DNA of 64,000 nt from positions 1-64,000 of the forward strand of contig JABHUV010000211.1 in the NCBI GenBank assembly GCA_018658605.1, in the 5' to 3' direction. Source of the DNA: Planctomycetaceae bacterium (GTDB taxonomy: Bacteria; Planctomycetota; Planctomycetia; Pirellulales; Pirellulaceae). The translations under genes and the position numbers were made by a program. The notes beneath the pieces are model-generated. The model worked only from the letters and a program-made list of their open reading frames with translations, was not told the origin of the DNA and searched no databases. Of the stretch, positions 14,694 through 29,576 are shown piece after piece; within the stretch, counting starts at the first letter, position 1, and every line of letters starts with the position of its first letter.

Positions 14694-15521
14694 TTAGACT
14701 GAACTAGCCACCGTTCGGTTGTTTTGCCACTGTTGAATTCGTTCCGTCAGTGAATTAGTTTGTACTCGCTGCGACTGTGAAATAGTGGCGTTAGTTTGGT
14801 CACCACGCTTGGAAGTGAATGTATTGGTGGTAAGTTTTGCGTTGCTAACGCAAGCAATATTGAAACAAGAAATAGACTTCCCACCGTTACTCTGGCCGCT
14901 AACAAACCACGCTCCGTTTTCGTAGAAAATTGCGTGCGGTGAAAACTCAATCCATGTTTCTTCGCCCAACTGTTGAGGAGCACTCGACAGTTTCGAAATG
15001 TCCTTCGTGTCGTTAGCTACCAATAGCTCAATCCGATGGCGTTGCATAATACTGTCGGCCACCGCTTGTAGAATGTCTCGCTGCAGCGAGCAGGGAGTCT
15101 CTTGACTAGAAAAAAATCGACAGGCACGTTGCAAGCGACGGATACTCACACGTTGTGCTTCGTCGAGTTTATCGATGAGCAATTCGAGAGTTTTTTCGAT
15201 GATGGTCCTCGTGCCATCAATTTGGAACCAAGGACAGCAATATAGCCCCAGAACGCATTCACGTATTTGTTCGAGTGCTATTTGTCGGCGGATCGTAAAA
15301 CTGCCTGAAGTTGGCAAAATCCGATAACCGTCGGCGAGATTATCAAAACGAACAGGTAAACCAGAATTACGAATAACACTTAAGTCTCGATAAATAGTAC
15401 GTTTGCTTACTTGGAATCGATCTGCTAATTCAACGGCGTTCAGTCCAGCACCTTGTTGAATACAGGAAATGATTTCCAGAGTGCGAGTAATGTTTTTCTT
15501 GTCGGATGAATTGTGAGTCAT
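14694..15521 (-). CDS. YafY-type transcriptional regulator (HTH plus WYL-like domain)
   Basis: The 275-residue protein starts with a DeoR/HTH_11-type winged helix (about residues 10-60; LADRFQVSKRTIYRDLSVI is the recognition part). Its C-terminal half follows the WYL-domain pattern: SPHAIFYENGAWFVSGQ stands where the family has P-x-x-L-x-x-x-x-G-x-W-Y-L-x-G. The WYL tripeptide itself is WFV here. These proteins bind DNA and sense a small ligand or nucleic acid. The start is ATG at 15521, because GGAGG lies 10 nt upstream on this strand; the open frame runs 34 codons further upstream without support. It is divergent from the asparagine-synthetase-like operon, making it the obvious candidate regulator of that operon. 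Confidence 0.8.
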   Translation of the reverse strand: MTHNSSDKKNITRTLEIISCIQQGAGLNAVELADRFQVSKRTIYRDLSVIRNSGLPVRFDNLADGYRILPTSGSFTIRRQIALEQIRECVLGLYCCPWFQIDGTRTIIEKTLELLIDKLDEAQRVSIRRLQRACRFFSSQETPCSLQRDILQAVADSIMQRHRIELLVANDTKDISKLSSAPQQLGEETWIEFSPHAIFYENGAWFVSGQSNGGKSISCFNIACVSNAKLTTNTFTSKRGDQTNATISQSQRVQTNSLTERIQQWQNNRTVASSV

Positions 15522-15531
15522 GTGATTTTTG

Positions 15532-15536
15532 CCTCC
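15532..15536 (-). promoter_or_regulatory. Shine-Dalgarno site of the WYL-type regulator
   Basis: A perfect GGAGG on the minus strand ends 10 nt before the ATG at 15521. It favours that start over the longer open frame. Confidence 0.7.
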
Positions 15537-15695
15537 ATGCAAAATTCGTACATTGTGAAAAAGTTGCAAACGATTGCCGCAACAACAGTGAAGAACAACT
15601 GCTCTATATCCTTCAGTTGCCAACGAAGGTTAAAAGGCGCCCTTAAAAACGTCGAAAAGCCAAATAAAAAAGTAGGTTTATGATGAATCCCCAAA

Positions 15696-15729
15696 TAAGC
15701 CGCAATGCGTTAGAATACGGTGCGGCTTA
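15696..15729. promoter_or_regulatory. 9-bp inverted repeat in the divergent regulatory region
   Basis: TAAGCCGCA at 15696-15704 and TGCGGCTTA at 15721-15729 are perfect reverse complements separated by 16 nt. The site lies 48 nt before the ATG of the asparagine-synthetase-like gene and about 175 nt before that of the divergent WYL-type regulator. It may be an operator for that regulator or, as RNA, a hairpin in the operon leader. There is no U-rich tail, so it does not look like a classical terminator. Confidence 0.5.
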
Positions 15730-15765
15730 AAGTTGCCAAAATGAACTCTGTTATTAATGAAAATC

Positions 15766-15770
15766 AGGAG
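15766..15770 (+). promoter_or_regulatory. Shine-Dalgarno site of the asparagine-synthetase-like gene
   Basis: AGGAG ends 7 nt before the ATG at 15778. It lies inside the seven codons that the upstream in-frame ATG at 15757 would add, so the shorter protein is preferred. Confidence 0.7.
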
Positions 15771-15777
15771 AGCTTGT

Positions 15778-17109
15778 ATGCATCCGCACCGTTATGTTGA
15801 ACGTTTAGTTGATTTGATAGATCCCGCGGCAAACATATTGTTCAATGTAACCCACGAAGAAGCTGCGGAAGCCGTGGCTGCAGGTGATACACAGCGGGTT
15901 GGTGAAATCGACGGACAGTTTGCAATCATACAAAAACGTGGCAATATCGTACGCATGGCACGATCCATCGGGCGTCCGATGCGTTATTTTTTGGCAAAGC
16001 GGGCAGCAGGCCCATGCTTAATCGTGGCTGAGCGGATGGAAGAAATCCAGCAGGCATTATCCGAGGAAGGACTTGCTGATCAGTTTCATCCATCGTACAC
16101 ACGAATGGTTCCGGCACATTACATTGTCGAGATTACGTTGATCGGTTGCCCAGATCCAAATCCTGTGAACAAGCGATTCTTCACGCCGCAGCGTAATGAA
16201 CATTCCACAGACCTAGATGAAATAGGTCGGATGTATATGGGTAAAGTTGCTCAAGAATTGAATGATTGGCTTGATCACATTCCTGCTGATGAACCTCTGG
16301 GTGTGTTGTTCTCAGGTGGTATTGATAGTGGTGCAGTCTTACTATTGATACATCACTTATTGCTCCAACGCGGTGAGTCGCCGGCGAGACTTAAAGCATT
16401 CACGCTGAGTGTTGCTGGTACGTCTTCCGATGCCACCAACGCCAAACAGTTCTTAGACGAAACAGATTTAAGCATGTTGCTCGAAGTGATTGATGTTCCC
16501 GCCGAGCAAGTTGATTTCCGTGAAGCGATTCGGATAATTGAAGACTATAAGCCTTTGGACGTACAGTCCGCAACGATGGCCTGGGCCTTGATGAAACAAA
16601 TTCGCCAACAATATCCTGATTGGAAGTATCTTGTTGATGGTGATGGTGGGGACGAAAATTTAAAAGATTATCCCATTGAAGATAATCCTGAACTAACGAT
16701 CGTGAGTGTTTTGAATAATCTGATGCTGTATCAAGAAGGCTGGGGTGTTGATTCTATCAAGCATTCCTTGACGTATTCCGGTGGGCAGAGCCGGGGCCAT
16801 GTGAGATCTTATGCACCAGCGGCGAAACTTGGATTTTGTGGTTTTAGTCCGTTCGCGTTATCAAGTGTGATCGAAGTTGCCGAGGGGATTCCATTTATCG
16901 AATTGACCGATTGGGACCATGAACAGTTGTATCGCTTGAAAGGTGAAATTGTGAAACGCGGAGTGGAAGCGATCACAGGTGTTACGATGCCAGTTTTTGA
17001 GAAATGTCGATTTCAACACGGAGCAGTTTCTCCAGAACGATTTACTGAATTGTTCCCCGTTGACGAACAGGTTTATCGAGATACTTTTGCAGATATCTTT
17101 ATTCGCTAA
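15778..17109 (+). CDS. Asparagine-synthetase-like PP-loop protein lacking the glutaminase cysteine
   Basis: The C-terminal two thirds of this 443-residue protein form an asparagine-synthetase PP-loop domain. The ATP motif LFSGGIDSGA is at about residues 178-186 and DGDGGDEN at 287-294. The N-terminal 140 residues match only the second half of a class II glutamine amidotransferase domain (VGEIDGQFAI at 41-50). The first part, with the catalytic Cys1, is absent. Such enzymes adenylate a carboxylate and join it to an amine; beta-lactam synthetase is a known relative that also lost the cysteine. So it likely forms an amide from a non-glutamine amine. First gene of an operon with a radical SAM enzyme (1-nt overlap) and a flavoprotein. 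Start set by AGGAG at 15766-15770. Confidence 0.8.
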   Translation: MHPHRYVERLVDLIDPAANILFNVTHEEAAEAVAAGDTQRVGEIDGQFAIIQKRGNIVRMARSIGRPMRYFLAKRAAGPCLIVAERMEEIQQALSEEGLADQFHPSYTRMVPAHYIVEITLIGCPDPNPVNKRFFTPQRNEHSTDLDEIGRMYMGKVAQELNDWLDHIPADEPLGVLFSGGIDSGAVLLLIHHLLLQRGESPARLKAFTLSVAGTSSDATNAKQFLDETDLSMLLEVIDVPAEQVDFREAIRIIEDYKPLDVQSATMAWALMKQIRQQYPDWKYLVDGDGGDENLKDYPIEDNPELTIVSVLNNLMLYQEGWGVDSIKHSLTYSGGQSRGHVRSYAPAAKLGFCGFSPFALSSVIEVAEGIPFIELTDWDHEQLYRLKGEIVKRGVEAITGVTMPVFEKCRFQHGAVSPERFTELFPVDEQVYRDTFADIFIR

Positions 17110-18080
17110 TGGTTACAGATCTCCCAACTCTGTCGGACCAGCAGATTGTCAGTTTGCGACCTCAGCGCAATTCCGTTGATCCGTTGAAGCCGTATGCATA
17201 TATGGTGGAAGAAGAATGTTCAGCCAGTGGCGAACTCACAAAAGTTGCCACGGTGTTTTTGACTAGTAGTGAATGTGCGTTGCGGTGCACTATGTGTGAC
17301 CTCTGGAAAAATACGCTTGAGCAACCGGTAGAGCCAGAGGCAATAGCAAAACAGATCCGGTGGGTGTTGAACGAATTAGAGATTGATCTAGCCGCTCCTG
17401 AGCGACAAGGGATTACTGCAATCAAGCTCTATAACAGCGGTAACTTTTTCGATAACCGTGCGGTACCTCGCAGTGACTGGCCTGAAATTGCAGAGTTGGT
17501 TGCAGGATTTGAATCTGTAATCGTTGAAAACCACCCGCGGCTATGTAAGCAGAACTGCCTAGAGTTTAAAAGCTTGTTGTCGGGTCAGTTGGAAATCGCA
17601 ATGGGTCTGGAAACGGTGCATCCTCAAGTGTTGCAGTGGTTAAATAAACAGATGAGCATGGAGGATTTTAAAGAGGCCACTCAAAGGTTAATTTCGCATG
17701 ATATTAACGTCCGCGCGTTCGTCCTATTGAGACCACCTTTTTTAACGGAGAAACAAGGAGTGTACTGGGCCACAAAAACGATGGAATATGCCTTTGAATG
17801 TGGTGTGGAATGTTGTTCGGTGGTTCCCGTGCGAGGTGGTAATGGTGTGTTGGACCAGTTGCAAAAACAGGGAAATTTTACACCACCTAATCTGAAATCA
17901 ATGGAAAGTACGTTGGTCGCTGGACTAGGGATGAATCGTGGGCGCGTATTTATGGATTTATGGGATGTACAGCGATTTGTGACTTGCCACCGTTGTGCAA
18001 ACGACAGACAAAATCGGATTCTGCAAATGAACCAGACACAGACTGTTATCCAAGGGGATGATTGTGGCGACTGTGGGTGA
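17109..18080 (+). CDS. Radical SAM protein resembling archaeosine enzyme RaSEA (COG1244-like)
   Basis: The 323-residue protein has the radical SAM motif CALRCTMC (C56, C60, C63), which holds a [4Fe-4S] cluster and cleaves S-adenosylmethionine. Further segments fit the COG1244/RaSEA pattern better than general radical SAM enzymes: IKLYNSGNFFDNRAVP, VIVENHPRL, IAMGLETVHPQVL and LLRPPFLTE. RaSEA in archaea is the radical lyase that finishes archaeosine in tRNA. The C-terminus adds two cysteine pairs, CHRC at 293-296 and CGDC at 319-322, suggesting a second metal site. The gene starts within the stop of the upstream gene (TAATG) and overlaps the next by 23 nt. Here the substrate is unknown; tRNA is only one possibility. 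Confidence 0.8.
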   Translation: MVTDLPTLSDQQIVSLRPQRNSVDPLKPYAYMVEEECSASGELTKVATVFLTSSECALRCTMCDLWKNTLEQPVEPEAIAKQIRWVLNELEIDLAAPERQGITAIKLYNSGNFFDNRAVPRSDWPEIAELVAGFESVIVENHPRLCKQNCLEFKSLLSGQLEIAMGLETVHPQVLQWLNKQMSMEDFKEATQRLISHDINVRAFVLLRPPFLTEKQGVYWATKTMEYAFECGVECCSVVPVRGGNGVLDQLQKQGNFTPPNLKSMESTLVAGLGMNRGRVFMDLWDVQRFVTCHRCANDRQNRILQMNQTQTVIQGDDCGDCG

Positions 18081-19590
18081 GCAAGGTAAACGATTTCTTG
18101 TGATTGGTGCGGGCTTTTCTGGTTCGCTACTGAGCGCCATCCTTGCGCGGCATGGCAAACAGGTTACTTTGATTGATCGCGACGAGCATCCCCGTTTTGT
18201 AATTGGCGAATCCTCTACACCCGCAGCCGGTTTGATTTTGCGAACGTTGGTCAAACGCTATGGATTATCTGAACTGGCTCCGTTGACTAGATATGGCCGC
18301 TGGGTGAACGAACTAGAGAGTGTTCGGCGAGGAGCAAAACGAGGGTTTAGTTATTTCTTTCATCAAGCCGATGCGGATTTTCACGTTGCTGATTGTCATT
18401 CCAATGAATTATTAGTTGCCGCCAGTTCTTCACTCGAGTTAGCGGATACTCAGTGGTTGCGATCAGATGTAGATCAGTTTTTATGTGACTACGCTACGCA
18501 GCAAGGTGTTGTCCTGCGCGACCGCACAACTTTAATGTCATTGCAGCGTCATGAGGTGAGTCGTGAATGGGCGGCAACGGTCATCGATAGTGAGAGTGTG
18601 CAGGAAAGCTTGCAATTCGATTGGGTTGTGGATGCCTCGGGTCAAGGAGAAGTCGTCGCCGGGTTATTAGGTTTGCCCAGCGGTGATCCACATGGTCTAC
18701 AAACGAACACGGTTGCAGTTTTCAGCCATTTTGATGGTGTTAAGAGTTGGGACGCGATGCTGTCCGAACAGCGACAAGATACCAAGGACTTTCCGTTTCC
18801 GGCTGATGTGTCTGCGCAACATCATTTGCTTAAAGAAGGTTGGTTGTGGTGCTTGCGGTTTGATCATAACGTGACGAGTGCTGGGCTCGTACTGGACGCC
18901 CACGATCTCACCGATGATTGGCAGCAAATCACAGCTAAAGAAATGTGGTGTACACATGTTGATCGCTATCCAAGTTTGAGCCGAATGTTTCAAGATGCTC
19001 AACTGTCTGTTACGCCTAATCGTTTTATCAAGACGCAGCGATTACAACGTATCGCTGGGCAAGCGACAGGGCAAGGTTGGGTGAGTCTGCCTCATACCGT
19101 TGGATTTATCGATCCACTACATAGTACTGGCATTGCACATTCGATGAGCGGAGTTGAACGATTGGCGGGCATCTTCTTGAGTGCAGACAGTGCGCATCAA
19201 GCTGGAGTAGATACCTATGGAGAACAGGTACTAGAGGAACTAAAGTTAATTGATTTGCTGGTGGCAGGTTGCTACTTAGCGTTACCATCGAAACGTCATT
19301 TTGAAGCATATTGCATGCTTTATTTTGCGGCGGCTACGACTTATGAGAAAAGTCGCATGGATACCGATGGTCGTAATCTCAACAATGCGATGTTACTAGC
19401 AGATGACGCACAATGGGTAATGGCGGTGCAGGATGTGTTTTATCACTTGCGGGAATTAGCAATGTCCCAACATTGGGGGGAACCGGCAGAATTTGAAGCG
19501 ATTATTCGGGAAAAAATAAAACGGTACAATCATGCGGGATTGTGTGACGCTGAAGTGTCATCCATGTATAGATATACAGCGGCAATGTAG
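18058..19590 (+). CDS. FAD-dependent oxidoreductase related to flavin-dependent halogenases
   Basis: The 510-residue protein has the FAD-binding GAGFSG at residues 17-22, the halogenase-like GESSTP at 50-55, VVDASGQGE at 190-198 and a WLWCLRF segment at 262-268. That last segment keeps the two tryptophans of the halogenase WxWxIP motif but not the Ile-Pro. Late in the protein, GFIDPLHSTGIAHSMSG matches the FIDPLxSSG stretch of halogenases, but the preceding GDA that normally contacts FAD reads LPHTVG. It could halogenate, hydroxylate or oxidise the product of the operon. ATG at 18058 follows AAGGGG, and the gene overlaps the radical SAM gene by 23 nt. Reaction not assignable from sequence. 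Confidence 0.8.
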   Translation: MIVATVGEQGKRFLVIGAGFSGSLLSAILARHGKQVTLIDRDEHPRFVIGESSTPAAGLILRTLVKRYGLSELAPLTRYGRWVNELESVRRGAKRGFSYFFHQADADFHVADCHSNELLVAASSSLELADTQWLRSDVDQFLCDYATQQGVVLRDRTTLMSLQRHEVSREWAATVIDSESVQESLQFDWVVDASGQGEVVAGLLGLPSGDPHGLQTNTVAVFSHFDGVKSWDAMLSEQRQDTKDFPFPADVSAQHHLLKEGWLWCLRFDHNVTSAGLVLDAHDLTDDWQQITAKEMWCTHVDRYPSLSRMFQDAQLSVTPNRFIKTQRLQRIAGQATGQGWVSLPHTVGFIDPLHSTGIAHSMSGVERLAGIFLSADSAHQAGVDTYGEQVLEELKLIDLLVAGCYLALPSKRHFEAYCMLYFAAATTYEKSRMDTDGRNLNNAMLLADDAQWVMAVQDVFYHLRELAMSQHWGEPAEFEAIIREKIKRYNHAGLCDAEVSSMYRYTAAM

Positions 19591-19929
19591 TAAACCACCT
19601 AGTATTGAGGGTAGTGGTGGTGATACTATTGCGACGGTTTTCTAGGGTGAATACCGTCGCAGATCGAGTTTGACGTCGATATGATTCAATAGATATAATA
19701 CAGAGCAGAAAAGACGTGCAAAGGATGACAGTCTTTACGATTCTGAGCAGCAACGCCCATAAAAACCCAAAACAATCCCACCTAATGTTTGCTCGGTAAA
19801 CTTGAAGACCTACCAAGGTTGCGGTGATTTAGTCTGATGCCTTGGAATGACTTTAATATAAAAACGACACATCGATCAATGGGGTGATTGGTGTAATACA
19901 GAATCCCTCCTTTTTGTTCTGTGACATAC
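19591..19929. other. Gene-free region with two weak hairpins
   Basis: No supported gene. ACCACC at 19594-19599 pairs with GGTGGT at 19616-19621, and TGCGACGGT at 19630-19638 pairs perfectly with ACCGTCGCA at 19653-19661 (14-nt loop). Either may help end transcription of the halogenase-like operon, but neither has a U-rich tail. The second half, upstream of the DUF1549 gene, should hold its promoter; I see no clear -35/-10 pair. A short minus-strand frame here overlaps the flavoprotein gene and has no support. Confidence 0.5.
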
Positions 19930-22767
19930 ATGAAGCGATTAATCTATTCAGCACTGATTTGCATAATACTGTCGTCTCCAGCGATGGCTGAGAGTCCTCT
20001 GCACGAACAAATTGATACGGCGGTTTCTAAGTATCAGGCGCTGAACAATGAGAGCTTGGCTTCGGCTGCCGAGTTTCAGCGACGTGTTTACTTGGACCTG
20101 TTAGGAACCATTCCATCTGCCCAAGAAACGCGTTCATTTTTAGACGATGGGGCTGCGGATAAACGCGAACAACTGGTGAATCGAATCATCGCGGATCCTC
20201 GATTAAACCATCGCCTAGCCAATGTATTTGACGTCATGTTGATGGAGCGAATTGCCGATGGACAAGTCAAATCTGCACAGTGGCGTCAGTATTTGTATGA
20301 TTCATTCGTCGCTAATAAACCTTACAATGTTCTGGCTCGCGAGATATTAGCTTCCAATGGTTCTGACCCCGTCTCTCGACCAGCAGCAAGATTTTATTTG
20401 GATCGAGCAGGTGAAACAAATCGGCTGACACGGGACGTCGGCCGGATGTTCTTCGGTATGGACATGCAATGTGCACAATGTCACGATCACCCATTGATTG
20501 ATGGTTACTTTCAACGTGATTACTACGGGTTATTTGCATTTCTTAATCGCAGCCATATTTTTACAGATGCAGCCAAGAAAAACTACTTTGCGGAAAAATC
20601 GGTAGGCAACGTTTCCTTTAAAAGCGTGTTCACCGAGGAAGCGGGTGAGACAGGTCCTCATTTGCCCGGAGACGCTCCGATTGCCGAGCCAGTTCATAAG
20701 AAAATAGATGAATATAAAGTCCGACCTCGCGCGAACGTTGTGACTGTGCCGACATATAGTCGGCGCGAGCAATTGGCAGAGACAGCCACCAATGGCAATA
20801 ACAGAGCGTTCAATCGCAATATTGCCAATCGGCTTTGGGGATTAATGAACGGTCGCGCATTAGTCGCGCCTGTCGACTTACAACACGCTGGAAATCCTCC
20901 TCTCAATCCGGAATTAATGAGTGTTCTTGAATTGGGTATCGCGCAATTGAATTTTGACGTGAAGGCTTTCTTGCGTGAGGTTGCATTGTCAAAAACGTAT
21001 CAACGTGCCTATCAATTGGACCCCGGTGCCAAAGTAACGGCCGCACACATTCAAGAGAAACTTGAAAGCGTCGCAACTTTACAAAATGAGTTGAGCAAGC
21101 AAGTCGTCACCGCGTCTCAAGCCTGGGAGCAACAGCAACTTGTCGTTGCCAAACTCGATACGCAATGGTCTGAAATTAGAGCGGCTTACGTAAAGTCGGA
21201 TAAAGCGGCGTCGGTTCAGTTGGATAAATATTTAAAAGAGGATGGTAGTCGTGTAACAGTGTTGAATAGCATCGCACAACGGTCACCTAAACGAGATGTA
21301 TTAGCTGCCGCCACTGCAGAAATTAATGCGGTTCTAAAGCTGTTACCCGTCGAAAAAGGTGTTGTGGATGCCGCGGCAGCGTTCAAGAAAAAATTAGACG
21401 CAAGCAACGCTGAATTAACGAAGCTAGAAGCCACTCGCGTTAAAGCGGCGGGCAAAACCAAAGAGGAGTTAGATGGGCTTAGTCCATTACAAGTCGCTCT
21501 TGATACGGCTTGGCAAGCGTGGGAACCCGGCAAAATAGAATTGCAAGCGGCTGCAACCAAAGAGCAAGTACTGCGAAACGCTTATGAAAAAATACAAGAA
21601 GAGTTCTATGCAATAGACGCCCAACAACTTCGCTGGAAACGAATTCAGGCTGCGGCTGTACTCGACGAACAAGTTGCTTCTCAGCAGGCGCAGTTGGTGA
21701 ACCTGCAGCAAAATATTAAACAAAGCACAGATCAAATCAATGCCGACAAACAAAAATTAACCAAGTCCCAAAGTAATCAACAATCAGCGAAGCAAATCCA
21801 TCAACAAGTAATAAGTGCCCTAACGACCGCCGAAAAACAACGTGCCTCCAAGCAAGAGGCGGTTGAATTGATGGATGAATTAATTGCGACGACCAACGCT
21901 GCGATTCAATTAATCTCTACCGATGATGATGCCTTAGCCGTGGTTAGTCAATTGAAACAACAACAAAGTCGTTTAGGTTCGGAGATGGCGGAAGTGGAAA
22001 AGCAGGTCAAAATTTCCCAGACCGAAGTTTCCGAAAAATCGAAACAGTTGCAGTCAGCAGTTACTGCGATGACAAAAATGCAGAAGACGCTTGATACAAA
22101 GCTGGCCGCTTTGAAAACACAACAGCAGCAACTAGCGACGGAGCAACTGGCACTTGTGGCAAACCGCGAAAAACAGTCGGCAGCGCATGAAAAACTTTCG
22201 AGTGTGTTAGTGTACGAGTTCGTCGTCAGCGATCTTAAACCACTGACGCCGGAACAATTGGCAAACACGGTCATGGAATCTCTCGGCGTCACAGAGACGT
22301 ATCGTGTTCAAGTAGAAGCAGAAGTTGCTAAGGCTAATCCACTGACTGATATGGATAAACAAGATGCTGTGAAAATGGCAACTCGGCAACGAGAGATAAG
22401 TGAAAAAGTACAAGCCAAAATTGCCCCCCTAGAAAATGAATTCATAAAGCTATATGCGGCGGGAGCGGGACAAGTTCAAACGGACTTTTTCGCGACGATC
22501 GACCAGGCATTATATTTCACCAACGGCAGTCGAATTAAGGGTTGGGTGAACTCGAATTCGTATTTGTCCGGACGCTTGATCAAAACGGAATCTGCCTCAG
22601 AAATAGCGGAACAACTTTATATTAGTTTGTTGAATCGTCGACCAACGGCACAAGAAACTAAACAAGTAAGCGAGTACCTAACGGCTCGTGCAGATCAAAA
22701 AGCAGAGACTGTGCGTGAGATGATCTGGGCTTTGTTGGCGTCGACCGAGTTTAGATTTAATCACTAG
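19930..22767 (+). CDS. DUF1549/DUF1553 protein with long coiled-coil insert
   Basis: The 945-residue product has a signal peptide (MKRLIYSALICIILSSPAMA). A DUF1549 domain covers about residues 25-230, containing FQRRVYLDLLGTIPS and the CxxCH stretch CAQCHDHP. A DUF1553 part begins near residue 280 (AFNRNIANRLWGLMNGRALV). After about residue 360 the DUF1553 domain is interrupted by some 400 residues of Gln-, Lys- and Ala-rich coiled coil, and its end returns at EQLYISLLNRRPTAQE. An in-frame GTG at 19921 could add 3 residues. These planctomycete proteins are exported and of unproven role; they pair with DUF1501 proteins, as here (gene at 22814). The long coil is unusual and suggests a structural or surface function. 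Confidence 0.9.
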   Translation: MKRLIYSALICIILSSPAMAESPLHEQIDTAVSKYQALNNESLASAAEFQRRVYLDLLGTIPSAQETRSFLDDGAADKREQLVNRIIADPRLNHRLANVFDVMLMERIADGQVKSAQWRQYLYDSFVANKPYNVLAREILASNGSDPVSRPAARFYLDRAGETNRLTRDVGRMFFGMDMQCAQCHDHPLIDGYFQRDYYGLFAFLNRSHIFTDAAKKNYFAEKSVGNVSFKSVFTEEAGETGPHLPGDAPIAEPVHKKIDEYKVRPRANVVTVPTYSRREQLAETATNGNNRAFNRNIANRLWGLMNGRALVAPVDLQHAGNPPLNPELMSVLELGIAQLNFDVKAFLREVALSKTYQRAYQLDPGAKVTAAHIQEKLESVATLQNELSKQVVTASQAWEQQQLVVAKLDTQWSEIRAAYVKSDKAASVQLDKYLKEDGSRVTVLNSIAQRSPKRDVLAAATAEINAVLKLLPVEKGVVDAAAAFKKKLDASNAELTKLEATRVKAAGKTKEELDGLSPLQVALDTAWQAWEPGKIELQAAATKEQVLRNAYEKIQEEFYAIDAQQLRWKRIQAAAVLDEQVASQQAQLVNLQQNIKQSTDQINADKQKLTKSQSNQQSAKQIHQQVISALTTAEKQRASKQEAVELMDELIATTNAAIQLISTDDDALAVVSQLKQQQSRLGSEMAEVEKQVKISQTEVSEKSKQLQSAVTAMTKMQKTLDTKLAALKTQQQQLATEQLALVANREKQSAAHEKLSSVLVYEFVVSDLKPLTPEQLANTVMESLGVTETYRVQVEAEVAKANPLTDMDKQDAVKMATRQREISEKVQAKIAPLENEFIKLYAAGAGQVQTDFFATIDQALYFTNGSRIKGWVNSNSYLSGRLIKTESASEIAEQLYISLLNRRPTAQETKQVSEYLTARADQKAETVREMIWALLASTEFRFNH

Positions 22768-22813
22768 GATTTTCCATAACCACCAGTTTTAAACATTAGT
22801 TGTGAGTAAGCCC

Positions 22814-24097
22814 ATGAAAAGTAATTATGCATGTAGATCAAATGAGCACGAAATTGCGAGGCGGGGTTTTTTAGGCACCATGTTAGGGACGGCGGGGGTT
22901 GTCGGTGGTCTCGGTGCCTTCACAAATCCATCGATAGCCACCGAACTGGAAAGGAAGCAAAAACGAGTGGTAGTGTTTAACATGGCCGGCGGAATCAGTC
23001 AGCTTGAAACATGGGACCCTAAGCCAGGTACAGATACGGGTGGACCTTTTCGGGCAATACCGACATCGGTGCCAGGTGTACACATCTCAGAACTATTACC
23101 CAAAACCGCTAAGTTAATGCATCATTTGGCTTTGGTGCGAAGTATTAACATCAAGGAAAACGATCATGGCAAAGGTCGATATGCCATGTGGACTGGGCGT
23201 CGTCAAACACCCGCTCAAGAGTTTCCACAAATCGGTGCGGTGATGGCAAAATCATTAGGAGCCGATAAACATGCGTTGCCTGGACATATCCGTGTCTCCA
23301 GCAGTACGGGTGGTCGTAGCAATGATTCGGCTTACTTGGGGCCTGCGTTTGCGAGTATTTCCATTGCTAGCGGGAAGCCCCTCGCCAATTCCGCTCGACC
23401 CGAGGGCATGACTGAAAAACAAGATATATTACGAAACGAATTTCGTCGTAGTGCGGACAATCGATTTTCTTTGCGCCGCCGCAGTGCTCAGACTGACGCT
23501 TACGCACAGAGTTATGAACAAGCACAACAGCTCATGGCAAACCGTGATGTTTTTGATATCACCAAAGAGTCACCTAAAGATCATGATCGTTATGGAAAAC
23601 ACGAGCTTGGGCAACATAGCTTGTTAGCTCGACGATTGTTAGAAAAAGGTGTTACCTTTGTACAGGTCACGCACTCGAACTATGACACGCACAACGAAAA
23701 TTTCAATTTTCACTTAGAACAAGTTGGAGAGTTTGACAAAGCCTATTCAGCGTTGGTCGAGGACTTGGCAGTACGTGGGATGTTAGAGAGCACATTGATT
23801 ATTGTCATGAGCGAATTTGGCCGTACACCTCGTATCAATCAGTACTATGGCCGTGACCATTGGGGAACAGCGTGGTCGATTTGTCTAGGTGGGGCTGGGA
23901 TTCAACGTGGTGCGGTAATTGGTTCGACCAATGACAACGGTACAGCCGTGAAAGACCGAGAGGTTGATCATGGCCATTTGTTTCACACATACTTGCAGGC
24001 CGTGGGAGTTGATTCATTAGGCAGCTTTAGTATCGGTGGTCAAGACATTCCTGTGGCCGATCCTTCTCATGCCCCGATTGAGGAACTACTTGTATAA
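22814..24097 (+). CDS. DUF1501 protein with twin-arginine-like signal
   Basis: The 427-residue product begins with a region containing ARRGFLGTMLG, the typical twin-arginine (Tat) signal of DUF1501 proteins. The sulfatase/phosphatase-like fold follows: VFNMAGGISQLETWDPKP, then IIVMSEFGRTPRINQ and GRDHWGTAW, where aspartates and histidines could bind metal. Function is unproven; the family always occurs near DUF1549/DUF1553 genes, as here, and secretion in folded form is expected. ATG at 22814 matches the usual start; GTG at 22802 would add 4 residues. The stop overlaps the next start by one base (TAATG). Confidence 0.9.
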   Translation: MKSNYACRSNEHEIARRGFLGTMLGTAGVVGGLGAFTNPSIATELERKQKRVVVFNMAGGISQLETWDPKPGTDTGGPFRAIPTSVPGVHISELLPKTAKLMHHLALVRSINIKENDHGKGRYAMWTGRRQTPAQEFPQIGAVMAKSLGADKHALPGHIRVSSSTGGRSNDSAYLGPAFASISIASGKPLANSARPEGMTEKQDILRNEFRRSADNRFSLRRRSAQTDAYAQSYEQAQQLMANRDVFDITKESPKDHDRYGKHELGQHSLLARRLLEKGVTFVQVTHSNYDTHNENFNFHLEQVGEFDKAYSALVEDLAVRGMLESTLIIVMSEFGRTPRINQYYGRDHWGTAWSICLGGAGIQRGAVIGSTNDNGTAVKDREVDHGHLFHTYLQAVGVDSLGSFSIGGQDIPVADPSHAPIEELLV

Positions 24098-25761: not shown

Positions 25762-28110
25762 ATGAGATTATCCGAATGCAGAAACTTAATGTTAGTTTGC
25801 AGTTTGTTGTTGGCTGTAAAATCGAACACGTTGGCGGACGAGGTGCAATTCAATCGTGACATCCGCCCCATCTTGGCGAATCACTGTTTTGCTTGCCATG
25901 GCCCTGATGCTGCACAGCGGCAGGCGGAGCTGCGACTAGATCTGGAATCAGCGGCAAAAGCGGATCGCGACCCAAAGGTAATTATTGCCCACAATATTAA
26001 ATCTAGCGAATTAGTGAGCCGAATAAATACAGCGGATCATGATTTGGTAATGCCGCCAGTGGAGTTTAACAAACCATTGTCCGCTGAGCAAAAAGCATTG
26101 CTTACTCAATGGATTGAACAGGGCGCCCCATGGGACGATCATTGGGCTTTCGTATCTCCGACAAGCCCGCTCTTGCCCACCGCAAAACAAGAATGGATAA
26201 ACAACGCTGTCGATCAATTTGTAGTCACTCGCATGCGTGCGTTGAACAGCGGGCTTAAGCCTAGTCCGATAGCCAACCGTGCAACGTTGATTCGTCGTTT
26301 GAGTTTTGACTTACGAGGGCTCCCGCCAACACTAGAAGAGGTGACCGGTTTTGTAAATTCTGGAAATTATGAATCGGTAGTCGATGCAATGTTGGCGAGT
26401 GAACAATTTGGTGAACGATTAGGGATGCACTGGCTCGATTTAGTGCGCTACGCAGACTCGGGGGGCTATCACAGCGATGTGCCGATCCATATTTCTCCTT
26501 ACCGCGACTATGTCATCCAAGCGTTTAATGAGAACATGCCATTTGATCAATTTACTCGCGAACAGCTAGCTGGCGATTTATTACTACAACCTACACAACG
26601 CCAAATCATAGCAACAGGTTACAACCGTTTAAACAAAACGACTGAAGAGGGCGGTGCTCAACCAGGTGAGTATTTAACTAAATATGCCGCTGACCGAGTA
26701 CGGACGACAGCGGGAGCATGGCTCGGATTGACGCTGGGTTGCTGTGAATGTCACGATCATAAGTACGATCCATTTACCACCGAGGATTTTTATCGCTTCG
26801 TGGCGTGCTTTGCAGATATTGAAGAAAAAGGTGTTTACGGCGGTAGTAGACGTGACCCTGAAATCAAGGTGGCGACGGCCCCGCAAGCTAAACAACTTGC
26901 TGAACTAGAAAAACAACTTACACTGTTGCAAGCACAATTGAAGGATGTATCTCAGGGAGAGGCAGTTCAAAAGCAAATTGATACGATCAAAGCGAAGCAG
27001 GTTGCTATTGAAAAACGGTTTGTGCGGACGATGATTACTCGCAGCGTCGAGCCCAAAGTGATCCGTGTATTACCACGTGGTGATTGGCTAAACTCCAGCG
27101 GCACTGTTGTGGCTGCCGGTGTGCCCCAACACTTTGCAAAGAAGATGACTGCTCGCGAGCAACGGTTTACGCGACTTGACTTGGCCAATTGGATCGTTGC
27201 AAAGGAAAATCCGTTGACGAGTCGGGTCTTTGTAAATCGATTATGGAAAATATTTTTTGGTCGTGGGCTGTCGTCGCAACTTGATGACTTGGGCATCCAA
27301 GGTGAGTGGCCCACACATCCAGCACTATTGGATTATTTAGCGGTACGATTTGTGGATTCGGGTTGGAATATTAAGCAAATAATCAAATTGATTGTTATGT
27401 CGCGTACGTATCAACAATCATCGACATTACGTCCAATTGATGCTTCGGCGGATCCCACTAACTTGTATTTTGCTAGACAATCGCGTTGGCGTATCGAGGC
27501 CGAATTCATTCGCGACAATGTATTGTCAGTGAGCGGTTTGTTGGATTCAACCATTGGCGGTCCGAGTGTATTTCCCTATCAGCCATCAGGGTATTGGCGT
27601 TACTTGAATTTTCCTACGCGCACGTGGAAATCCGATAGTGGTACGAGTCAATATCGTCGTGGACTCTATACACATTGGCAGAGAACGTTAGTACATCCAG
27701 CGATGTTGGCCTTCGATGCTCCGACGCGGGAGGAATGTACTGCGATGCGTAGTATTTCTAATACTCCCGCTGCTGCATTGACTTTACTAAATGACCCAAC
27801 GTTTGTGGAAGCTGCGCGGGCGTTGGCTGCGCGAGTGGTTCAACAGGGGGGTGAACAGGAAAACGACAAAATCCGTTGGTTGTTTTTACAAGTGCTATCG
27901 CGCCCTGATACGCAACAAGAGCGAAAAGCTGTGATGCAAATATTGCAAACTGCGCGGGTACACTATGCAGACGATCCAATGGCAGCGGCCCAACTGCAGA
28001 CCAATGGGCTGTTTAAGTTGGAGTCGACGGTAGATGTGATTGAAGTCAGCGCGTGGGTTATGGCGTGTCGTGTGGTTTTGAATTTAAGCGAAACAATAAC
28101 TCGTAATTAA
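25762..28110 (+). CDS. PSCyt1-DUF1549-DUF1553 secreted protein
   Basis: The 782-residue product begins with a signal peptide (ending near TLAD). A planctomycete cytochrome-like PSCyt1 domain follows, with the heme-type CFACHG motif at about residues 42-47 and the VMPP segment near residue 96. Then come DUF1549 (about residues 150-360, with CCECHDHKYDPF) and DUF1553 (about residues 465-740, starting RLDLANWIVAKENPLTSRVFVNRLW). The CxxCH motifs suggest heme binding in the PSCyt1 part, but no oxidoreductase partner is nearby. The DUF1501 partner gene follows after 11 nt. Role unproven; such proteins are numerous in planctomycetes and some occur near sulfatases and glycan genes. This is the common form, without the long insert of the 19930 gene. 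Confidence 0.9.
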   Translation: MRLSECRNLMLVCSLLLAVKSNTLADEVQFNRDIRPILANHCFACHGPDAAQRQAELRLDLESAAKADRDPKVIIAHNIKSSELVSRINTADHDLVMPPVEFNKPLSAEQKALLTQWIEQGAPWDDHWAFVSPTSPLLPTAKQEWINNAVDQFVVTRMRALNSGLKPSPIANRATLIRRLSFDLRGLPPTLEEVTGFVNSGNYESVVDAMLASEQFGERLGMHWLDLVRYADSGGYHSDVPIHISPYRDYVIQAFNENMPFDQFTREQLAGDLLLQPTQRQIIATGYNRLNKTTEEGGAQPGEYLTKYAADRVRTTAGAWLGLTLGCCECHDHKYDPFTTEDFYRFVACFADIEEKGVYGGSRRDPEIKVATAPQAKQLAELEKQLTLLQAQLKDVSQGEAVQKQIDTIKAKQVAIEKRFVRTMITRSVEPKVIRVLPRGDWLNSSGTVVAAGVPQHFAKKMTAREQRFTRLDLANWIVAKENPLTSRVFVNRLWKIFFGRGLSSQLDDLGIQGEWPTHPALLDYLAVRFVDSGWNIKQIIKLIVMSRTYQQSSTLRPIDASADPTNLYFARQSRWRIEAEFIRDNVLSVSGLLDSTIGGPSVFPYQPSGYWRYLNFPTRTWKSDSGTSQYRRGLYTHWQRTLVHPAMLAFDAPTREECTAMRSISNTPAAALTLLNDPTFVEAARALAARVVQQGGEQENDKIRWLFLQVLSRPDTQQERKAVMQILQTARVHYADDPMAAAQLQTNGLFKLESTVDVIEVSAWVMACRVVLNLSETITRN

Positions 28111-28121
28111 TTAGGTTTTTT

Positions 28122-29576
28122 ATGCAACGTCATCAATTTGAAAACGGAATCAATAGGCCGATGTTAAATGTACCGGCGAATCGCCGTCAGTTCTTAGGTC
28201 GTGCGTCGGGTGGACTGGGCATGACCGCATTGGCTTCCTTGTTGGAGGCTGAAGAGCCGCAGAGTACGGGGTTGATGCCGGGTATTGAAGGTGGTCTTCA
28301 TTTTTCCGCACGAGCTAAACGAGTGATTTTTCTTTGTATGGCGGGTGGACCATCTCATCTGGAATCATTTGACTACAAACCGAAACTTGCTGAAATGCAT
28401 GGCAAACCGATGCCAGAAACATACACGTCCAATCAGCCTATTGCTCAGTTACAAGGTCAGAAGCTCGTTTGTCAACAACCAATGATCCCTTTTCGAAAAT
28501 ATGGCGATTCCGGCATTGAAATATCGGACGTGTTTCCGCACATTGGGAAAGTGGCAGATGAACTCTGTGTGATCAAGAGTATGCATACAGATCAGATCAA
28601 CCATGACCCAGCTCACACCGTGATGAATACTGGCACATCGATTTCAGGTCGTCCGAGTATGGGGTCATGGGTAACCTATGGACTCGGTAGCGTTGCGAGT
28701 GATTTACCTGGATTTGTCGTGCTGACTAGTAAAGGCGGTCGCAATCCCCAGCCGATTGCCACTCGACAATGGCACAGCGGTTTTTTACCCGGCCGTTATC
28801 AGGGTGTGCAGTTCCATTCATCCGGATCACCGGTTTATTATGTACAAAACCCCGCTGGAGTCAGTAAGGACTTGCAAGGTCAAGTTATTGATACTGTCAA
28901 TAAACTAAATGGATTACGTAATCGGGAGGTCAAAAACCCAGATATTTCGACACGCATTAAACAATACGAACTAGCATTTCAAATGCAGGACAGTGTTCCT
29001 CAGTTAATGGATATCGCGGACGAATCACAAGCGACTTTAGATCTGTATGGTGTAACAAAAGCCGATGGCAGTTTTGCATACAACTGTTTGCTAGCACGTC
29101 GCATGGCTGAACAAGGAGTTCGCTTTATTCAGCTATATCATCGAGGATGGGATCATCATAATGACTTGGTCAAGTACATGGGTATTTGTAGTGGACTGTG
29201 TGATCAAGCCACCTCTGCGTTGATTCAAGATCTTAAACAACGAGACATGCTAAAAGACACTCTCATAATATGGGGTGGGGAGTTTGGCCGTACGCCGATG
29301 GCTCAAACCAACAAAGGTGCGGTTGGGCGTGATCATCATATGCGAGCGTTTAGTATGTTCATGGCGGGCGGTGGTGTGAAAGGTGGAACAACTTATGGAA
29401 ATACAGACGAACTCGGATATGACGCAGTTGAGCATCCAGTCCATGTGAATGATTTACATGCGACGATGTTGCATCTGCTTGGTTTACAACACGATCGCTT
29501 AACCATCCGATATCAAGGGCGAGATTTTCGTCTAACCGATATTGCTGGAGAGGTTATTCAGGATATTATTGCTTAG
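28122..29576 (+). CDS. DUF1501 protein
   Basis: The 484-residue product has an N-terminal NRRQFLGRASGG stretch of Tat-signal type and the DUF1501 segments FLCMAGGPSHLESFDYKPKL, IIWGGEFGRTPM and GRDHH. The predicted fold belongs with the alkaline phosphatase/sulfatase group, but activity is unknown. It pairs with the PSCyt1-DUF1549-DUF1553 gene 11 nt upstream. The 3' end overlaps the convergent folC gene by 11 nt, so read-through would produce antisense RNA there. Confidence 0.9.
   Translation: MQRHQFENGINRPMLNVPANRRQFLGRASGGLGMTALASLLEAEEPQSTGLMPGIEGGLHFSARAKRVIFLCMAGGPSHLESFDYKPKLAEMHGKPMPETYTSNQPIAQLQGQKLVCQQPMIPFRKYGDSGIEISDVFPHIGKVADELCVIKSMHTDQINHDPAHTVMNTGTSISGRPSMGSWVTYGLGSVASDLPGFVVLTSKGGRNPQPIATRQWHSGFLPGRYQGVQFHSSGSPVYYVQNPAGVSKDLQGQVIDTVNKLNGLRNREVKNPDISTRIKQYELAFQMQDSVPQLMDIADESQATLDLYGVTKADGSFAYNCLLARRMAEQGVRFIQLYHRGWDHHNDLVKYMGICSGLCDQATSALIQDLKQRDMLKDTLIIWGGEFGRTPMAQTNKGAVGRDHHMRAFSMFMAGGGVKGGTTYGNTDELGYDAVEHPVHVNDLHATMLHLLGLQHDRLTIRYQGRDFRLTDIAGEVIQDIIA

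Follow-up and report, generated by a model that had tools for sequence, protein, structure and literature searches.

What do three overlapping genes for an amide-forming enzyme, a radical enzyme and a halogenase-like flavoprotein make together? The question is raised by positions 15778 to 19590 of a 64,000-nucleotide stretch of a Planctomycetaceae bacterium genome (contig JABHUV010000211.1; hereafter the window, meaning this whole stretch). The locus encodes, all on the forward strand, an ATP-dependent, amide-forming enzyme that resembles asparagine synthetase but lacks its N-terminal nucleophile Cys (ASN, 15778..17109), a RaSEA-like radical S-adenosylmethionine (radical SAM) enzyme (RSAM, 17109..18080) and a homologue of the flavin-dependent halogenases PltM and CtcP (HAL, 18058..19590). 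The three very probably form one functional unit, and their functional tie to CRT1188, a protein of ~1,190 residues with TPR, FG-GAP and UnbV_ASPIC parts, is likely. Our reading of the whole, to which we give a probability of roughly 0.45, is that the enzymes form a cytoplasmic accessory pathway whose product acts with CRT1188 as a small molecule. An open-access literature search returned no paper describing this gene set.

Conservation and co-occurrence of the three genes

The three open reading frames (ORFs) lie where the first-pass annotation of the window had placed them. ASN has 443 residues counted from the ATG at 15778, which is the start position of most relatives in alignment A2; its longest ORF covers 15757-17109. 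ASN and RSAM (323 residues) overlap by 1 nt (TAA/ATG), and RSAM and HAL (510 residues) by 23 nt. To compare the neighbourhood in other genomes, the GTDB species genomes were scanned with an RSAM alignment, which gave 443 confirmed stretches, and all locus counts refer to the best 80 of these, with genes called by a simple longest-ORF script. Most of these loci come from metagenome-assembled genomes (MAGs) whose phylum is taken from the submitters' titles and whose bins can be wrong. By title they comprise Planctomycetota (44), Bacteroidota (26), Rhodothermota (2), Gemmatimonadota (2), unplaced genomes (2) and one each of Nitrospinota, Acidobacteriota, Balneolota and Verrucomicrobiota. Carriers that can be cultured include Rhodopirellula rubra (L049) and Maribacter luteus (L060), in the latter of which HAL was not detected. 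ASN is present in 66 of the 80 loci, immediately upstream of RSAM in 64, and HAL in 37, immediately downstream in 33; absences depend on contig ends, two loci (L027 and L071) having less than 500 bases upstream of RSAM. The three-gene arrangement is not due to chance. The first-pass annotation would have been abandoned had the genes not been neighbours in related genomes, and the trio is adjacent in many of them. When whole genomes were searched, ASN was found in all 23 RSAM genomes tested, including the 14 of 14 whose RSAM locus carries no ASN, and HAL in 20 of the 23.

Co-occurrence was counted in 394 genomes, 147 of the planctomycete phylum and 247 of the Bacteroidota phylum as drawn by GTDB, which takes in Rhodothermia (such as G003). 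The genomes were requested at a completeness of at least 85, per-genome values not being displayed; the probe alignments include rows from G003, G005 and G013, themselves within the samples, and in the HAL searches scoring covered the top 10 or 6 first-look candidates of each genome. As the genomes are not independent, the results are given as counts, without Fisher test values. In the planctomycete sample, RSAM and ASN occur in the identical five of 147 genomes (G005, G066, G085, G100 and G144). ASN is present in 17 of the 247 Bacteroidota genomes, all of which also have RSAM, and the only further RSAM match is a weak one of 82 bits (G216), so that over both samples the two occupy the identical 22 of 394 genomes apart from this weak match. 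HAL scores 565-658 bits in the five planctomycetes, three others reaching 244-265 only, and 418-674 bits in 16 of the 17 Bacteroidota genomes with ASN against none of the 230 others; at 418 bits or more it is thus found in 21 of the 22 ASN-RSAM genomes and in 0 of the 372 others. Linkage alone cannot account for this pattern, because three genomes (G066, G085 and G100) carry HAL apart from ASN-RSAM, and one of them, G100, also has ASN and RSAM on different contigs, though separate contigs in draft genomes are no proof of distance. Conserved adjacency and co-occurrence together bear out the earlier view of the genes as one unit.

Two loci deserve mention in their own right. In the 3.2-Mb MAG G021, a partial second RSAM match (44.7 bits) lies at the end of contig C367 beside ASN, in addition to the RSAM of locus L027. 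The locus titled Nitrospinaceae (L053) carries CRT genes 49-64% identical to those of Bacteroidota and Gemmatimonadota and stands near them in the ASN tree, which suggests either a transfer or a wrongly binned contig.

A large, probably exported protein accompanies the enzymes

Upstream of ASN, most Bacteroidota-labelled loci carry the genes for CRT1188, for CRT554 (an FG-GAP/UnbV protein of ~554 residues) and often for a Peripla_BP_6 protein. Some CRT gene is present in 24 of the 26 loci, and a CRT1188-type match in 22, in 20 of them upstream (some clipped by contig ends) and in L055 and L074 downstream and partial. The two loci without a CRT gene are L079, which ends 642 bases upstream of RSAM, and L013, which carries HAL and clusters with the Rhodothermota locus L011 in the ASN tree. 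CRT genes immediately adjoin ASN in the Bacteroidota loci and in the Gemmatimonadota locus L034, where CRT554, ASN, RSAM, HAL and CRT1188 stand in one row. The second Gemmatimonadota locus (L040) contains CRT554 and ends after RSAM, while in the acidobacterial one (L063) ASN and RSAM are accompanied by a small ORF, HAL and a CRT1188 relative. In three planctomycete loci (L157, L158 and L159), ASN is located away from RSAM and HAL and adjoins a divergent CRT1188 gene on the opposite strand; in the five planctomycetes of the sample, CRT1188 is away from the enzymes, on another contig or megabases apart.

Beyond its UnbV part, CRT1188 ends in ~440 residues that have no Pfam match and form an unassigned domain, conserved and with many invariant Trp, Asp and Gly (L048 5445-6761, L060 5621-6949 and L034 8579-9889). 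An alignment of this C-terminal part (A4) served as the probe for CRT1188. The domain was detected at 456-790 bits in 22 of the 23 RSAM genomes. In the planctomycete sample it is present in all five ASN genomes (465-569 bits) and, at an E value of 1e-10, in 49 of the 142 others, of which G041, G045 and G159 reach 420 bits; in the Bacteroidota sample, at the same E value, it is present in 17 of 17 ASN genomes (423-776 bits) and in 10 of the 230 others, seven of which reach 420 bits. At 420 bits or more, CRT1188 therefore occurs in 22 of the 22 ASN-RSAM genomes against 10 of the 372 others. Export of CRT1188 is likely, given a lipobox-like pattern in 24 of 46 proteins (by a crude scan, some hits of which are spurious) and a hydrophobic stretch at the start of several planctomycete ones. 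No residue was found that separates the 37 CRT1188 proteins of ASN-bearing genomes from the nine of ASN-less genomes.

Several neighbourhoods of CRT genes contain further genes. That of CRT1188 in G045 (L106) resembles the one in G144 (L108), but G045 is without ASN, RSAM and a full-score HAL; possibly, the enzymes were lost and CRT1188 was retained. In two Bacteroidota loci (L074 11129-18501 and L055 3386-10904), ASN-RSAM is followed by a second CRT554-type gene, by genes for two beta-propeller proteins, one hydrazine-synthase-alpha-like and one in part similar to cytochrome c/MauG, and by Peripla_BP_6 genes. In Rhodopirellula relatives (L049 13703-20923 and L103 238-9135), genes of the CRT1188 type, for a multihaem cytochrome and of the CRT554 type follow one another in a row; in L103 the cytochrome has 5 CxxCH motifs and the row is on a different contig from the three enzyme genes.

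Family assignment of the enzymes

The three enzymes can all be placed in known superfamilies, and not one reaches the mark of its nearest named family. ASN matches PF00733 (53.9 bits) and TIGR01536 (51.6 bits, cut-off 267.1). The SGGxDS ATP-binding loop and the catalytic Lys typical of the asparagine-synthetase superfamily are present: S186, G188, D190, S191, E300 and K416 are invariant across the 61 ASN proteins, position 187 being Gly or Ala, and K416 is the probable counterpart of AsnB Lys449, as read from the motif and not from alignment output. The Cys directly after the start Met, which marks glutamine-dependent asparagine synthetases, is found in none of the 61, although cysteines do occur elsewhere, and it is in this sense that the protein had been rightly called Cys-less. 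By analogy with the superfamily, ASN, having no glutaminase nucleophile, should activate a carboxylate and join it to an amine that is not ammonia derived from glutamine. D296 aligns with AsnB Glu348 (1ct9) and is Asp in 59 and Glu in two of the 61 proteins; none has the Tyr (Tyr348) that beta-lactam synthetase carries there. The structural model (mean predicted local distance difference test score, pLDDT, 85.0) is nearest in fold to beta-lactam synthetase, followed by AsnB, carbapenam synthetase and TsnB9. In the ASN tree (61 rows), the window protein clusters with those of planctomycete MAGs (L001, L002, L004, L006, L007 and L008; support 100/98). The family is large, with at least 8000 relatives scored.

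The best NCBIfam match of RSAM is TIGR01210 (RaSEA) at 107.3 bits, in agreement with its first description as RaSEA-like. RSAM was considered as RaSEA itself, which we reject: the window protein is under the cut-off of 212.15 bits, and so is the best match in each of the 23 genomes (79-119 bits), so that RSAM is rather a relative of RaSEA. TIGR01212 (MnmL/YtqA) matches weakly (18.7 bits, cut-off 180). No solved or curated family is matched closely, and the high identity to a known, different radical SAM family that would have spoken against the first-pass annotation was not seen. The cluster cysteines of the CxxxCxxC motif (C56, C60 and C63) are present in 75 of 75 proteins and the model (pLDDT 93.4) has the radical SAM fold by structural match, which places RSAM in that superfamily; its structural neighbours include Elp3 and queuine lyase, the top rows of that comparison being tied. 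The C-terminal cysteines C293, C296, C319 and C322 are found in 65, 67, 69 and 35 of the 75 proteins, respectively. This family is also large (6562 relatives at E <=0.001 among 7853 candidates). The names "archaeosine synthase beta-subunit" and "asparagine synthase (glutamine-hydrolysing)", given to some relatives in the source databases, are doubtful because RSAM is under the RaSEA cut-off and ASN is without the Cys.

HAL matches PF04820, the tryptophan-halogenase family (60.9 bits), and its best solved relatives are PltM (6bza) and tetracycline 7-halogenase (CtcP), with E values of about 1e-40, as its description as halogenase-like implied. Its best NCBIfam profile is that of QhpG (60.8 bits against a cut-off of 240), and the maturases GoxB and LodB match too. 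Flavin-dependent halogenases share a WxWxIP motif; in the window protein, W262-x-W264 is followed by C-L-R instead of x-I-P. The catalytic Lys of halogenases is kept, K94 being invariant in the 23 rows of alignment A3 and aligning with the Lys of the PltM GIKLGFSF motif (K87), whose replacement in K87A inactivates PltM (PMC6424973).

Proposed pathway and alternatives

In our proposal, ASN, RSAM and HAL would work in the cytoplasm, as parts of a single accessory pathway that ends at the putatively exported, envelope-anchored CRT1188. ASN would adenylate a carboxylate with ATP and join it to an amine-bearing partner. RSAM might then form a 5'-deoxyadenosyl radical and break a C-N bond of the amino-acid-derived part, as RaSEA does and as MnmL does with a glycine adduct of transfer RNA (tRNA), with the nitrogen retained as a primary amide or a similar group. 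In genomes with HAL, this enzyme could halogenate or hydroxylate electron-rich rings with the help of reduced flavin adenine dinucleotide, O2 and perhaps a halide. The product would act together with CRT1188 and would most likely be a small molecule or cofactor bound to it. The gene anatomy, the conserved catalytic motifs and the joint occurrence of the four genes are observed, while the substrates, the order of the steps, the C-N cleavage, the halogenation, the export and a physical link to CRT1188 are inferred. The first-pass annotation had suggested a small three-gene pathway: the unit stands, but a fourth component, CRT1188, had been missed, and HAL is not universal, being absent from 25 of the 26 Bacteroidota-labelled loci and undetected in G011 (Bacteroidales), G013 (Maribacter) and G021.

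Several observations weigh against our proposal. HAL is dispensable in G011 and G013. CRT1188 does not need the enzymes, as 10 of its 32 carriers at 420 bits or more are without them; this line was itself picked after the scores were seen, and the planctomycete scores grade into paralogues, with some match in 49 of the 142 ASN-less genomes. In G021, ASN and RSAM are present whereas neither HAL nor CRT1188 was found. Finally, a small molecule or cofactor is favoured over a protein modification because the nearest solved HAL relatives use small molecules and no signal of a modified site was seen, but the preference is weak, as QhpG, the best curated profile of HAL, is protein-modifying.

It is this profile, together with GoxB and LodB, that suggests a maturation of CRT1188, or of the smaller CRT554, by the three enzymes before export, as in the QhpD/QhpG system. 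Such a role would agree with the CRT genes adjoining ASN and with the enzymes not having been seen without CRT1188 in these samples except in G021 while the reverse does occur, as expected of a target. We nevertheless consider it rather unlikely: no residue sets apart the CRT1188 proteins of ASN-bearing genomes, small molecules are the substrates of PltM and CtcP, and the modification of an exported protein of about 1,200 residues would have to precede its export. A specialised metabolite of an ordinary kind, which bears an amide, is halogenated in most carriers and acts outside the cell, with CRT1188 merely sharing the lifestyle or hosts, would account for the patchy distribution and the dispensable HAL, and homologues of halogenases and amide synthetases are common in specialised metabolism. 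This is improbable in view of ASN being 55-77% identical across the phyla of A2, which is high for such pathways, and of CRT genes in the same operon in several phyla, with CRT1188 in 22 of 22 genomes.

The nucleoside-modifying pathway of the first-pass annotation, a ligase-then-lyase pair like ArcS-RaSEA with another ligase acting on tRNA or another nucleoside, draws on RaSEA as the sole strong curated-family match of RSAM and on Elp3 and queuine lyase as structural neighbours. The observation behind it, a RaSEA-related radical SAM enzyme beside a different ligase family, is sound, but the role is highly improbable: none of the 23 genomes exceeds the RaSEA cut-off, the Pfam matches of the three proteins include no RNA-binding domain, and the genes, in contrast to what is typical of tRNA modification, occur sporadically (22/394) and in company with a probably exported protein.

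Returning to the accessory pathway, we tentatively propose a four-part system of several phyla, in which three cytoplasmic enzymes may make an undescribed cofactor or modification for an exported TPR/FG-GAP/UnbV_ASPIC family whose C-terminal domain is unassigned. Through the strict co-occurrence of ASN and RSAM, and the near-strict one of HAL and CRT1188 with them, three misleading annotations and a large, probably exported protein become a pathway that can be tested. If correct, it would show that RaSEA-type radical chemistry is not confined to archaeal tRNA, with new chemistry outside RNA for the RaSEA clade, give a biochemical role to a bacterial UnbV_ASPIC subfamily (the CRTAC1-like branch) and provide four marker genes with which to look for the product.

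Other genes of the window

A divergent gene on the reverse strand (14694..15623) encodes an HTH_11-type protein (PF08279, 34.3 bits) and is a candidate regulator of the operon; within the 80 loci this family is confined to the close relatives L001-L008, where it flanks the operon. The intergenic stretch between this gene and ASN (15624..15777) is the likely promoter region, as read from the sequence. Downstream of the operon, at 19921-24097 and 25762-29576, are two planctomycete gene pairs of the DUF1549/DUF1553 plus DUF1501 type; in the first pair, the DUF1553 match spans only the first 92 of the 244 profile positions and is followed by a long Gln/Lys/Ala-rich stretch.

Comparison with known systems

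Beta-lactam synthetase, carbapenam synthetase and TsnB9, superfamily members that have no glutaminase function or use other nucleophiles, are the nearest folds to the ASN model and likewise combine ATP-dependent formation of an amide-type bond with the lack of the glutaminase Cys. In structure comparison, however, ASN is 15-18% identical to them at best, and it has Asp or Glu at the position of Tyr348 of beta-lactam synthetase. Similarly, HAL shares the catalytic Lys with PltM and CtcP but differs from them in the residues after W-x-W and in being tied to ASN and RSAM. QhpD, a radical SAM enzyme, and QhpG, a flavin monooxygenase, act in the maturation of a quinohemoprotein amine dehydrogenase subunit and thus resemble the present set in serving an exported protein with a radical SAM enzyme and a halogenase-like flavin monooxygenase; unlike here, the radical SAM family and the target are different ones, HAL is far under the QhpG cut-off, and we know of no amide-forming enzyme in that system. 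MnmL/YtqA, a radical SAM family of tRNA modification, is a weakly matching relative of RSAM, which is far under its cut-off, and to our knowledge has no ASN-type ligase partner. A similar logic is found in archaeosine synthesis by ArcS-RaSEA in Euryarchaeota, where the nearest curated radical SAM family is likewise paired with a ligase, one that adds an amino-bearing partner: RaSEA converts the lysine adduct made by its partner ligase into archaeosine and forms a complex with that ligase (PMC11298593). ArcS is TGT-like, whereas ASN is of the asparagine-synthetase family; RSAM scores half of the RaSEA cut-off, and the set described here has an additional flavoenzyme and a probably exported partner.

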